A DNA stretch of 64,000 nucleotides from Arcobacter sp. F2176 (GTDB lineage Bacteria > Campylobacterota > Campylobacteria > Campylobacterales > Arcobacteraceae), in assembly GCF_004116465.1 (NCBI RefSeq), contig NZ_PDJV01000006.1:1-64000 (forward strand), given 5' to 3'. Positions within the stretch are counted from its first letter, which is position 1. Each line of letters begins with the position of its first letter. Under the pieces are notes generated by a model. The model was not told the origin of the DNA. It did not search any database and worked only from the letters and a program-made list of their open reading frames with translations. A program made the translations under genes and the position numbers. Shown here piece by piece: positions 40,040-43,556 of this stretch.

Positions 40040-40079
40040 AACTAACACTTAATTAACACTAATACTTTATAATTATAAT
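40040..40079 (+). promoter_or_regulatory. Promoter with candidate operator, facing right after rsmE
   Basis: Directly after the rsmE stop stands AACTAACACTTAATTAACA (40040-40058) with CTAA behind it. Within it the words ACTAACA and ATTAACA repeat at an 11-base spacing. Five bases after the block come two abutting TATAAT hexamers (40068-40079). A near copy of the block lies at the same distance (28 bases, block start to -10 start) from the likely -10 of the CydA-like operon at 43455-43480. Confidence 0.55.
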
Positions 40080-40085
40080 GTTTAA

Positions 40086-40167
40086 ACAAAAAGAATAAGA
40101 TAAACTCCTACTAATTTTTATCTATTCACAAGAACGCTAAAGCCACTAAACACCAATTGGCTTTAGC
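40086..40167 (+). ncRNA. Possible small RNA
   Basis: From the expected start after the double TATAAT, about 80 bases run to a 10-bp perfect hairpin GCTAAAGCCA/TGGCTTTAGC (40136-40145 and 40158-40167). A first hairpin AGATAAA/TTTATCT (40098-40104 and 40117-40123) exposes CTCCT in its loop, able to pair with ribosome binding sites. There is no plausible reading frame. The final hairpin lacks a good U run, and the RNA would be antisense to the end of the response regulator gene. It is based on sequence signals only. Confidence 0.35.
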
Positions 40168-40817
40168 TTATATCCTCTATTTTTTTGTGATTCAATAATA
40201 TCACCACCTAATATTTTTCTTAAATGCCAAATATGATATCGAATGACATCAGCTTTTGAGTTACTATTAGTGGGATAAACATTTTTTTCTAGAATCTCTT
40301 TACTTACAAACTCTCCTCTTTTTTTAATCAAGTAGTTTAGTACTAATAAAGCTTGTGTTTCTATTTCTAGGGCTTTATTATTATAAAAAAGTTCTTTTGA
40401 AAAAATATTGTATGAAATTTTGTCATTAATAGTTATGCATTCGTAATATGTTCGGTATGCTCTTTTGATTAGGGATTGAATTCTTAGAATTAGTTCTTTA
40501 TTATTGCCTGTTTTATTTAAAAATCCATCGCAACCACTTTTAAATGATCTAATGGTACTATTGGGGATAGAGGTTAAAACTAACCGTATAGTTTCATCTT
40601 GATATTCTGTTAATATCTTCATTATCTCATAACCATTAATTTGAGGTACGTTTATATCAAGTATGTATAAGTCGTATATATTGTCATATATTTTATTTAA
40701 AAATTCTTCTCCATTGGAACAAGTGTCCACAAAAAAGTTTTCTTCTTCAAGTAGGTCTTTTATAGTTTCTTGAAAGAGTTTATCATCTTCTAAAAATAGT
40801 ATTTGAGTACCAATCAT
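40146..40817 (-). CDS. OmpR-family response regulator (orphan)
   Basis: 223 residues. The receiver domain (1-115) has the acidic pair D11/D12, phospho-acceptor D54 in 'LYILDINVPQ', T82 and K102. The C-terminal winged helix (about 125-222) ends 'RYHIWHLRKILGGDIIESQKNRGYKL', typical of OmpR/PhoB DNA-binding domains. No histidine kinase gene lies in the window. It follows the two CydA-like genes on the same strand, separated by a terminator-like hairpin, so read-through from that operon is possible. A role in oxidase control is inferred from place. Confidence 0.9.
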   Translation of the reverse strand: MIGTQILFLEDDKLFQETIKDLLEEENFFVDTCSNGEEFLNKIYDNIYDLYILDINVPQINGYEIMKILTEYQDETIRLVLTSIPNSTIRSFKSGCDGFLNKTGNNKELILRIQSLIKRAYRTYYECITINDKISYNIFSKELFYNNKALEIETQALLVLNYLIKKRGEFVSKEILEKNVYPTNSNSKADVIRYHIWHLRKILGGDIIESQKNRGYKLKPIGV

Positions 40818-40879: not shown

Positions 40880-42073
40880 TTAGAGTATATTCATAAAGAG
40901 TATTGTCATACCCCAACCAAAATAAATAACCATCCATAAAACCATTATAGATAAGGTATAATTACCTAATTTTGTAACAGCTTTATCTTTTGTACCATCA
41001 AAAACGCCTTGGTTTTTCCCAACTTTCCAAGCTAATGTTAGAAGATATGCAACTCCTACTCCTCCTAAAACTAAGAAAGTAAGTAAGAACATTACAATAG
41101 TAGGGATTTCTAAATTAACTGGATATTCATAAATGCTATATCCCAGTTTTGCCATAATATCAAACCTTATAAGTTCTCTCATAGAAGAGATTAACAGAGC
41201 AACAACAACTAATACTATAGTTGTAATATAACTATTACTGTTTTTCAAAATCATAAATAATAAAATAACAACACCTACAACAATAGCAATAGATAATGGA
41301 TGTAATAAATATCCAACTTGTATCATCCATGCTACAAAGGCAACGGCACTTATAATTAAACCTACTACTCCAATTTTTGTTCCAAGCTTTGCACAATAAT
41401 CTATAAATATTTCACTAAAATCTCTCCTTGTACTTAAAAATCTACTATAGTTTTGTAAGAATAATCCAACAACTGGAATTGATAAACTTAACATAAAAAT
41501 CAATCTTACAGTATCTACATTAAATGTCCACCCACTATTGTCAACTATTCCATTTGGTGCATACATATTCATCCAATCATTTGGCATAAGAGAAGTTACT
41601 GCAAAATTATGCATTAAAGTTCCTGCAAATATTAAAATTAGAAATGAAATAATACCTATTAGTTTTCCTCCACCTTGATTTTTCTTGTTTGCAAAATAAT
41701 ACCAATAATAAAGAATATAACCAAGAACTAATGTATATATAAATATAAATACCCACATTCCAGATAATGTATTTGTTACATACCAATTTGGATCATAAAT
41801 AACTTGTGTAAATAATAAAGGTGCAACCCCTAAAACTATAAGTATAGAAATACTTATTTTCCCTGTTTGGATTAAATGGGGTGTTAATATCTTCCAATTG
41901 TCATCACTTTTTTGTTTAAAAGTACCATATAATGAAAGTCCCATTGAACCTAATGCAAGAAAAACAAAGGCTGCATGTAATGCCCATGTTAAAACATACA
42001 GCGCTTGGAATACTACCGGATAAAAAGGTACTCCTGCTGGATCTCTTAGAGCTAATAATATTGATGCGTCCAT
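40880..42073 (-). CDS. CydA'-like second membrane subunit (cytochrome bd superfamily candidate)
   Basis: A 397-residue protein with about nine transmembrane helices. Its first helix has 'LTWALHAAFVFLALGSMGLSLYG' with H33 in the place of the CydA heme-ligand His. 'ISILIVLGVAPLLFTQVIYDPNWYVTN' recalls CydA helix 2, and 'SSMRELIRFDIMAKLGY' recalls the CydA GRQPW region. So it looks like a second, diverged CydA-like chain rather than a classical CydB. No quinol Q-loop is seen. It follows the heme c-bearing CydA-like gene by 8 bases, with AGGAGG before its ATG. Substrate and heme content are not provable here. Confidence 0.6.
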   Translation of the reverse strand: MDASILLALRDPAGVPFYPVVFQALYVLTWALHAAFVFLALGSMGLSLYGTFKQKSDDNWKILTPHLIQTGKISISILIVLGVAPLLFTQVIYDPNWYVTNTLSGMWVFIFIYTLVLGYILYYWYYFANKKNQGGGKLIGIISFLILIFAGTLMHNFAVTSLMPNDWMNMYAPNGIVDNSGWTFNVDTVRLIFMLSLSIPVVGLFLQNYSRFLSTRRDFSEIFIDYCAKLGTKIGVVGLIISAVAFVAWMIQVGYLLHPLSIAIVVGVVILLFMILKNSNSYITTIVLVVVALLISSMRELIRFDIMAKLGYSIYEYPVNLEIPTIVMFLLTFLVLGGVGVAYLLTLAWKVGKNQGVFDGTKDKAVTKLGNYTLSIMVLWMVIYFGWGMTILFMNIL

Positions 42074-42081
42074 AATTCCTC

Positions 42082-43419
42082 CTAATATTTCATTGATGCA
42101 AAATATTGGGCAATTGCATCAGTTTCATTTTCTGGTAATTTTAATGTTGGCATGTATGGCATACCACCTGCACCTATTGCATATAAAATAGACTTGATAG
42201 CTTCTTTATCCATACCGGCTAATCTATCTTTTAAAGGTCTATATTTACCAGTTTTTTCTAAAGAGTGACAATTTGAACATGCCATTCTTGCTAAAAGTTT
42301 TCCAACTTCATGTTTGTTCTCTTCTGTAATTACCTTTAAATTTTTTGGAACAAATGGATTAACTTGTAAAAGTCCTTTTTCGGCGATTATTGGAAGTTCG
42401 CTTTTTATTCCTTTCCCTGGTACATCACGACTAATTATTTGATTTGAATAAATATATTGACCCGCAACATAAGGTTTTCTCATAGATTCTCTTAGTTTCT
42501 CACCTGGCCATATTCCTGCAATTAATATTATAAAAACCATAACTCCTGCTAATGGTGTACTTATAAATTGTGGTTTTACAATTGCAACTAAAAAATAAAT
42601 AGAAAAAACAACTGTAAGAATAATTCTACTTTGAATAACATCTGCTTTTGTTATATTAAATACAGCATGTGCATTGTCAGGTAGAGTTCCCATATACCAC
42701 ATAAAGAAGAATAGAACTAAAAATCCTCCAAGCATACTTACATAACCCATTTTTTTAGTTAATTCACGTGAAAGTTCTAGATTGTCTTTTTTCATTGCAC
42801 TTGAAATAATAAGTCCAATTACACCTGATAACATAATCATAAAACCAATTCGTAAAAACATATGAGGGAAGGTATTTGTACCAAAAAATGCATCACTTGC
42901 ACTTCCTGTTGTATAGTATTCTTGAGTACCTGGCCACATCATAAAACTAATAATCCCAATGATCAATGCTAAAGTACCAACTGAAGCCATTGCAAATGAG
43001 AATGTAAGTTTTAAATGAGTTTTCTTATCGATTTTATCTATAAAGTAAACAAGAACAAAGACTCCTATTACTTCAAAAACAAAAAATACCCACTCAGTCG
43101 CCCAAACCCAAACAAAGTTATGTATTAAAGCACTAATACCCCTTGGACTTGCTGCAGTTGCCGTGTACCAAATACCTGGACCGGTAATTGAACCTATTAC
43201 ATACGAAAAAATCAACAAAAACATACCGTATTTTTTCATATACGGATATAAATCAGTTCTATTTTCTTTATATGCTTTATATGACAAATATGCAAATAGC
43301 ATTGCTGCACCAACAGAAGTATGTGATGCTAAGATGTGTATAGTTCCTGTCATACCCATCATCCAAGCACTTCCGTATTCTGGAAAATAAAACAACGGAA
43401 ATTGTCCTATAATATCCAT
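42082..43419 (-). CDS. CydA-like protein fused to cytochrome c domain
   Basis: 445 residues. The N-terminal membrane part shows CydA-like features: H28 in 'TGTIHILASHTSVGAAML', a helix-2 motif 'VIGSITGPGIWYT', the acidic pair E109/E116 in 'ATEWVFFVFEVIGVF', H186 in 'FPHMFLRIGFMIML' and, around residue 310, 'GEKLRESMRKPYV' like the GRxPW region. The C-terminal 100 residues carry CSNCH at 381-385 with a possible Met ligand in 'GGMPYMP'. There is no obvious quinol-binding Q-loop, so the donor may be cytochrome c or the nearby bc1 complex. AAGGAGG precedes the ATG. It could reduce O2 or another small molecule such as NO, and sequence alone cannot tell. Confidence 0.65.
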   Translation of the reverse strand: MDIIGQFPLFYFPEYGSAWMMGMTGTIHILASHTSVGAAMLFAYLSYKAYKENRTDLYPYMKKYGMFLLIFSYVIGSITGPGIWYTATAASPRGISALIHNFVWVWATEWVFFVFEVIGVFVLVYFIDKIDKKTHLKLTFSFAMASVGTLALIIGIISFMMWPGTQEYYTTGSASDAFFGTNTFPHMFLRIGFMIMLSGVIGLIISSAMKKDNLELSRELTKKMGYVSMLGGFLVLFFFMWYMGTLPDNAHAVFNITKADVIQSRIILTVVFSIYFLVAIVKPQFISTPLAGVMVFIILIAGIWPGEKLRESMRKPYVAGQYIYSNQIISRDVPGKGIKSELPIIAEKGLLQVNPFVPKNLKVITEENKHEVGKLLARMACSNCHSLEKTGKYRPLKDRLAGMDKEAIKSILYAIGAGGMPYMPTLKLPENETDAIAQYFASMKY

Positions 43420-43454: not shown

Positions 43455-43480
43455 CTTAGTATGTTAATTTAATGTTAGTT
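43455..43480 (-). promoter_or_regulatory. Candidate operator of the CydA-like operon
   Basis: On the minus strand: AACTAACATTAAATTAACA followed by TACTAAG. It matches the block at 40040-40062 closely (AACTAACAYTWAATTAACA). The start of the block is 28 bases upstream of a weak -10 (TAAACT, at 43447-43452), the same distance as at the other site. Two ACTAAC/ATTAAC words repeat with 10-11 base spacing, as expected for OmpR-type regulators. Confidence 0.5.
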
Positions 43481-43523: not shown

Positions 43524-43556
43524 AAAAAAGGGGACTAATAAAAATTAGTCCCCTTT
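43524..43556. terminator. Terminator behind petC
   Basis: AAAGGGGACTAAT (43527-43539) pairs perfectly with ATTAGTCCCCTTT (43544-43556), with a 4-base loop. An A run on the left side becomes the U run for the leftward transcript. It ends petABC. Confidence 0.9.

Follow-up and report, generated by a model that had tools for sequence, protein, structure and literature searches.

Two adjacent genes for membrane proteins in Arcobacter sp. F2176 raise the question of what enzyme they encode, where it would draw its electrons from, and under which conditions the cell would use it. The genes lie in a stretch of 64,000 nucleotides (the window; Table 1) from an Arcobacteraceae-like genome of 3.27 Mb, and both open reading frames are present where the first-pass annotation had put them. 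That annotation saw in the pair (subunits A and B hereafter) an enzyme of the cytochrome bd superfamily without a quinol loop and with cytochrome c as donor, all of which we retain; we part from it on His186 as a heme ligand, on bc1 as an operon partner and on NO as an acceptor. Judging from sequence, we think it fairly likely that the pair is a copper-sparing cytochrome c:O2 oxidoreductase of the bd superfamily that replaces the cbb3 oxidase when copper is scarce.

We evaluated the family membership of each chain with sequence profiles and with predicted structures. The comparison with PF01654 that had been proposed for both proteins gives matches for 36 of 45 relatives of A (best 6.1e-11); of the window proteins, A matches weakly (17.4 bits against a curated cut-off of 26.2) and B has no Pfam match. 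Single-sequence searches of the PDB and NCBIfam recovered the cytochrome c part alone for A and gave no match for B, and a PDB profile search with a diverse set of A sequences reached Geobacillus CydA (5doq_A, 9.4e-11). Shallow alignments gave hhalign probabilities of 3.5 for A against E. coli CydA and 0.3 for A against B; a wider family set rescued both comparisons (A versus CydA, probability 94, E 1.3e-7; A versus B, probability 95.6, E 1.3e-8, covering most of B), and B versus CydA stayed at probability 0.7 even with this set. With AlphaFold models of A and B (mean pLDDT 77 and 87), Foldseek placed CydA chains at the top for A (5doq_A, E 7.3e-6, probability 1.00) and ranked CydA and CydB chains almost equally for B. 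VIA, the better of the two fold comparisons, gave Z 25.5 to 6rx4_A for A (3.3 A over 300 residues) and Z 25.4 to the CydA chain 7ose_A for B, with alternative complex III as the next family at Z of about 17. Because VIA ranks CydA chains first for each, both chains are CydA-type on these models, and B is no CydB. The earlier view that both are CydA-like members of the bd superfamily agrees with these folds (Z of about 25) and with the paralogy of A and B; neither a chain outside the superfamily nor a true CydB was found. By its sequence, then, B is a CydA paralogue encoded beside A, in a pair of the CydAA' type.

A scan of 84,980 species genomes yielded 124 loci encoding A, the best 80 of which were kept for all counts given here; these fall in Campylobacterota, in beta-, gamma- and alphaproteobacteria, and in Methylacidimicrobium (Verrucomicrobia). 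B directly follows A in tandem in 79 of these best 80 loci (the contig of the remaining one stops inside A), and the two chains diverge in step (distance correlation 0.98). Remoter pairs are carried by plasmids of Thermus (33% identity) and Agrobacterium (26%). Some Arcobacteraceae-type genomes also carry a second, distant A/B-like pair with 31-35% identity to A (Table 1); wherever the partner is complete, each of the two chains has a heme c site, and one such locus (L021) has a gene for an OmpR-family response regulator upstream of the pair.

Table 1. Features of the A/B locus and of related loci (positions are those of the window unless a locus or genome handle is given)
Feature	Position	Strand	Remark
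Subunit A (CydA-type catalytic chain, 8 predicted TM helices, C-terminal heme c domain predicted to be periplasmic)	42082..43419	-	445 aa
Subunit B (CydA', CydA-type paralogue, 10 predicted helices, without heme c)	40880..42073	-	397 aa
His28 of A (equivalent of CydA His19)	43336..43338	-	80/80; aligned to CydA His
Glu109-Glu116 of A (G. thermodenitrificans Glu101/Glu108; E. coli Glu99/Glu107)	43072..43095	-	80/80; 5doq_A alignment
E307-x2-RE-x2-RKP of A (307-316), equivalent of CydA E445...GRQPW	42472..42501	-	80/80
CSNCH heme c attachment site of A (residues 381-385)	42265..42279	-	C381/C384/H385 80/80
Direct repeat TAACA-N5-TTAACA (shared copper-regulon box)	43462..43477	-	42 bp upstream of A
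Intrinsic terminator (13-pair stem and T run), ends bc1 unit before A	43527..43556	-	Identical in nearest relative, L002
OmpR-family response regulator, directly downstream of the pair	40146..40817	-	PF00072 and PF00486
Box near ccoN match	G043:C1:396929, G057:C1:1113913, G066:C1:296610, G020:C41:11757		
Second, distant A/B-like pair	L020:1013-3726, L021:158-2886, L022:1-627		Arcobacteraceae-type genomes

The best clue to the role of the pair, missed by the first-pass annotation, is a copper-acquisition regulon, together with the neighbours of the pair in other genomes. The sequence about 42 bp upstream of A, TAACATTAAATTAACA, is an 11-bp direct repeat, and a perfect TAACA-N6-TAACA repeat occurs in 22 of 47 Campylobacterota upstream regions, mostly 58-85 bp before the start. 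We derived the box pattern from the window locus together with close relatives, after which eight further genomes served as a test. In the window genome TAACA-N5-TTAACA occurs 12 times (the reversed pattern, eight times), and five of the 12 boxes lie 39-44 bp before a gene, namely those for subunit A, ExbB, a PCuAC copper chaperone, a TonB receptor and an unnamed 182-aa protein. Across all nine genomes, 28 of 80 box sites (a count that includes, for some genomes, only part of the sites) are followed by a start codon at a distance of 36-52 bp, as against two of 21 control sites, both at unrelated genes. These 28 boxes precede subunit A (seven), copper-type TonB receptors (eight), PCuAC (five), NosL (four), ExbB (three) and one other gene, such that in 27 of them the same box at the same distance precedes subunit A or a copper-type gene. 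The word is short and AT-rich, and genome-wide counts alone are not clearly above control, so the specificity of the box rests on position and gene identity. For the boxed TonB receptors the top model is the TonB copper receptor TIGR01778 (7e-66), with scores below its cut-off. Taken together, the sequences suggest a response to copper starvation rather than to copper excess.

The downstream OmpR-family response regulator, a homologue of which adjoins the pair in about 10 other loci, is a candidate reader of the box. In one genome (L172; G003:C1:339677) a gene for an OmpR-family response regulator is itself closely preceded by a box, possibly a case of autoregulation. A further perfect copy of the box lies in the window at 40043-40058 (+), between the 3' ends of the rsmE-like and response-regulator genes; it is conserved in the nearest relative, and no gene start lies downstream of it. 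The 182-aa protein is anchored at its N-terminus, has a box 43-44 bp upstream (L161:246-791, L157, L148) and no Pfam or NCBIfam match; relatives of it are encoded close to A/B at three other loci in Campylobacterota (L039, L041, L056). The box TAACAAAAAATTAACA is found repeatedly about 130 bp upstream of the ccoN match, oriented away from ccoN (Table 1).

Beyond Campylobacterota, 11 of 36 loci have a PCuAC, DUF2946 or SCO1 gene in the neighbourhood of the pair, mostly no more than 1 kb away, where a rough estimate (a few copies per 4-7 Mb genome) puts the chance expectation well under one. Betaproteobacterial copies adjoin genes for all three; DUF2946, which we take to be copper-related, lies beside PCuAC and SCO1 in locus L083. 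A Bordetella-type genome has the gene order TonB receptor-PCuAC-A-B, and in Methylosinus the mbnF gene of methanobactin is near the pair. Genes for copper-type TonB receptors, NosL or ExbB are rare or absent in the flanks of the pair loci. The Thermus plasmid copy (L134) is beside ZnuA and CobW, and among this locus and two of Thiomicrorhabdus (L094, L098) the pair adjoins ZnuA, CobW-type GTPases or a Fur/Zur-like regulator; given these zinc-type neighbours, the metal may not always be copper.

The Methylosinus pair is followed by RegB/RegA redox two-component genes (ActS/PrrB and ActR/PrrA family), which makes a redox-responsive regulon the main rival to copper, and the Agrobacterium pair is likewise followed by a kinase/regulator pair. 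On that account A/B would be a cytochrome c:O2 oxidase working beside cbb3 rather than replacing it, and copper-uptake genes would be co-induced to supply the copper that cbb3 and nitrous oxide reductase require at low O2; NosL, which serves nitrous oxide reductase, does belong to the boxed regulon. The best-supported members of the regulon are nevertheless those for copper uptake at the outer membrane (TonB receptor, ExbB) and PCuAC, as expected for copper shortage, and other classes repeatedly have methanobactin or DUF2946/PCuAC/SCO1 genes next to the pair. We therefore regard an oxygen or redox regulon as rather unlikely and prefer the copper-starvation reading.

What the enzyme would reduce can be judged from the residues of the active site. 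Throughout the best 80 of the 124 loci, H28, E109, E116, E307, R310, E311, R314, K315, P316, C381, C384 and H385 of A are invariant (80/80), as are H33, M154, H155, R299 and E300 of B (79/79), and so the motif residues are not there by chance. The equivalents in A of E. coli His19, Glu99, Glu107, Glu445 and Arg448 are H28, E109, E116, E311 and R314, the Glu445 region being weakly aligned: the 307-316 motif meets LAEVGRQP of 5doq_A in a sub-threshold second domain of the profile alignment, which sets Glu311 and Arg314 against the E445/GRQPW motif. Glu109 and Glu116, which align with the two glutamates in TM3 of CydA, have the seven-residue spacing of Geobacillus (eight in E. coli, with an inserted leucine). 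The first-pass annotation had listed the CydA residues as present in order, which holds in 80 of 80 loci for His28, Glu109/Glu116 and the RKPY region (314-317) and fails for His186, as described below. O2 is probably the acceptor.

Co-regulation with copper import genes and a heme-only electron path to the periplasmic face would also suit an enzyme in which cytochrome c drives the reduction of Cu(II), or of another metal chelate, for copper import, and PepSY-type redox proteins do go with copper uptake elsewhere (PMC13038864). Such a reductase is very unlikely given that the bd O2-site set (H28, E109, E116, E311 and R314) is invariant and the fold is that of a bd oxidase throughout. We think it highly improbable that A/B is a cytochrome c-fed NO reductase or an enzyme of NO/peroxide detoxification: bd-type enzymes are generally known to react with NO and peroxide, but no tool result points there, no recurrent NO-related gene was recognised beside the pair, the regulon is one of copper and not of nitrogen oxides, and a NorB-like COX1 homologue (460 aa, so named by inspection) is encoded separately in the window genome. 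Nor did we find any pointer to NO as acceptor, which the first-pass annotation had entertained alongside O2.

The likely donor can be read from what A has gained and lost relative to CydA. The CSNCH site is present at 381-385 as first reported, and Met423, kept in 77 of the best 80 loci, is the likely sixth ligand of a His/Met-type heme c; the domain is class I-like (CxxCH, Met423), and a Cytochrome_CBB3 domain is found in 39 of 45 A family members. Positive-inside charges give A an N-out/C-out topology with eight TM helices, and the heme c is therefore placed in the periplasm. The Q-loop is absent from A, in line with the earlier reading, and no intact quinol loop was found: the predicted TM6-TM7 connection measures three residues in the model, at the place where E. 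coli CydA has its long Q-loop. The heme b558 ligands of CydA are His186 and Met393 (PMC6853902). Among the best 80 loci, residue 186 of A is His in 63 cases and Gln in 17; the profile alignment to Geobacillus CydA puts it three residues ahead of the CydA His, and no equivalent of Met393 was seen in the alignment to CydA; we accordingly rejected His186 of A, variable and out of register, as a b558 ligand. As far as these alignments reach, A is without heme b558 ligands.

The partner chain keeps His33, as first noted (79/79), and R299-E300..R303, both aligned with heme-ligand motifs, as well as the invariant Met154-His155, and it may hold one or more hemes; its TM3 lacks the acidic pair. Its tail, which had been called related to that of A, is so in the short RExxR motif alone; the C-terminus consists of two additional TM helices and has no site for heme c.

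A small c-type cytochrome gene lies just 3' of B in many proteobacteria, and in two Arcobacteraceae such genes separate petC from A. Because the Q-loop and b558 ligands are gone, a periplasmic heme c is in place and small c-type cytochrome genes are nearby, the donor is probably cytochrome c and not quinol. That A/B instead oxidises quinol at a novel site, its heme c being regulatory or an electron outlet, would have a precedent in archaeal CydAA', which reportedly oxidises quinol despite having two CydA-type chains, and is hardly to be expected of a protein that lacks the Q-loop and both b558 ligands and has an invariant heme c.

The first-pass annotation had named cytochrome c or the neighbouring bc1 complex as donor, and the first of these remains likely. 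The terminator sits directly between petC and subunit A, and adjacency of bc1 to the pair is restricted to a few close relatives, so we rejected bc1 as an operon partner as unlikely. Since the terminator separates the units, bc1 is a neighbour and a plausible electron source, and the pair is, on sequence, a transcription unit of its own. An Rfam search of the region gave no match, and the literature search found no biochemistry on the A/B pair.

The window genome also encodes a canonical CydAB elsewhere and a cbb3 oxidase (a ccoN fragment), and a COX1-family oxidase is present in 18 of 18 other carrier genomes tested, from which we conclude that A/B is auxiliary. With no carrier lacking COX1 (0/18), A/B was rejected as a sole oxidase, and O2 reduction by A/B is not forced by the absence of other oxidases. 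Two partial COX1-family genes in this assembly are cut at contig ends with the same coordinates (L026, which is ccoN, and L027, at the ends of C37 and C8 of G000); they are probably two near-identical copies splitting the assembly, and the relative G001 has two complete ones. A 523-aa, very weak COX1 homologue (19 bits) lies beside ABC-transporter genes (L028:1027-2595) and occurs in many related genomes.

In the copper-sparing reading, A and B would pair up in the membrane as an OR-C-like, CydAA'-type heterodimer of the cytochrome bd superfamily, with B as structural partner in place of CydB, perhaps with one or more hemes of its own. A soluble or membrane c-type cytochrome, fed by bc1 in this genome, would reduce the periplasmic heme c of A. 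The electron would move on to a periplasm-side heme near Glu311 and from there to the other heme of the active site, near His28/Glu109, at which O2 would be reduced to water. The copper-free enzyme would have a promoter of its own and belong to one regulon with the outer-membrane copper receptor, ExbB, PCuAC and NosL; under copper scarcity it would take over from the copper-requiring cbb3 as terminal oxidase of the bc1/cytochrome c branch. It is because the enzyme would be copper-free and is co-regulated with copper import that replacement of cbb3 at low copper appears most likely. A quinol bd oxidase bypasses bc1 energy conservation; the gain of A/B over CydAB would be that bc1 is kept in the path.

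By its features, A/B fits OR-C, an uncharacterised type within the bd superfamily. Murali, Gennis and Hemp are said to have described OR-C in 2021 as a bd-type family without the quinol site, with a c-type heme and with cytochrome c as predicted donor; on this description it shares with A/B the fused C-terminal c-type heme and the missing quinol site. The same work reportedly describes the archaeal CydAA' (Caldivirga) as CydA plus a CydA paralogue, which takes the place of CydB as in A/B, but with quinol as donor and without heme c. Canonical CydAB shares the fold, the active-site ligands of A and the copper-free nature but differs in its Q-loop, its b558 (His186/Met393), its CydB and its lack of heme c. 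The cbb3 oxidase serves the same branch (cytochrome c to O2) and has membrane-bound c-type hemes, but it is a heme-copper enzyme of unrelated fold. The excerpts of two papers describe OR-N CydAA' of Nitrospirales/Nitrospinota as putatively cytochrome c-oxidising (PMC10839748, PMC12342949); like A/B it has two CydA-type chains, no CydB and a putative cytochrome c donor, but it belongs to OR-N1/OR-N2 or OR-N5 clades, a fused heme c goes unmentioned in those excerpts, and, as far as they tell, it is often the main oxidase of its hosts, whereas A/B is auxiliary to cbb3 and CydAB. OR-C itself appears by name alone in the excerpts of the literature searched, and that literature (mostly outside subscription journals) yielded no copper link for such enzymes. 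Quinol-oxidising relatives do have one: in Bordetella pertussis the quinol bd oxidase CydAB is essential under copper limitation (PMC12914433), and in Pseudomonas the CIO serves under copper limitation (PMC10256816).

New here are the copper box and the proposed copper-linked role; the kind of enzyme is known but uncharacterised. Public records for the Thermus, Agrobacterium and Methylosinus chains are annotated as 'cytochrome c' and 'hypothetical protein', and the enzyme is for this reason overlooked in genome-based predictions of respiration. Terminal oxidases that oxidise cytochrome c are generally regarded as heme-copper enzymes. We lean, somewhat cautiously, to the view that bacteria of several phyla possess a cytochrome c oxidase dedicated to copper starvation, heme-only and built of two CydA-type chains, which is switched on with copper import and sustains the bc1/cytochrome c branch without cbb3 or aa3. 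If this is true, A/B would be a copper-free counterpart of complex IV that preserves bc1 energy conservation under copper limitation, and the uncharacterised OR-C-type enzymes would gain a physiological role.
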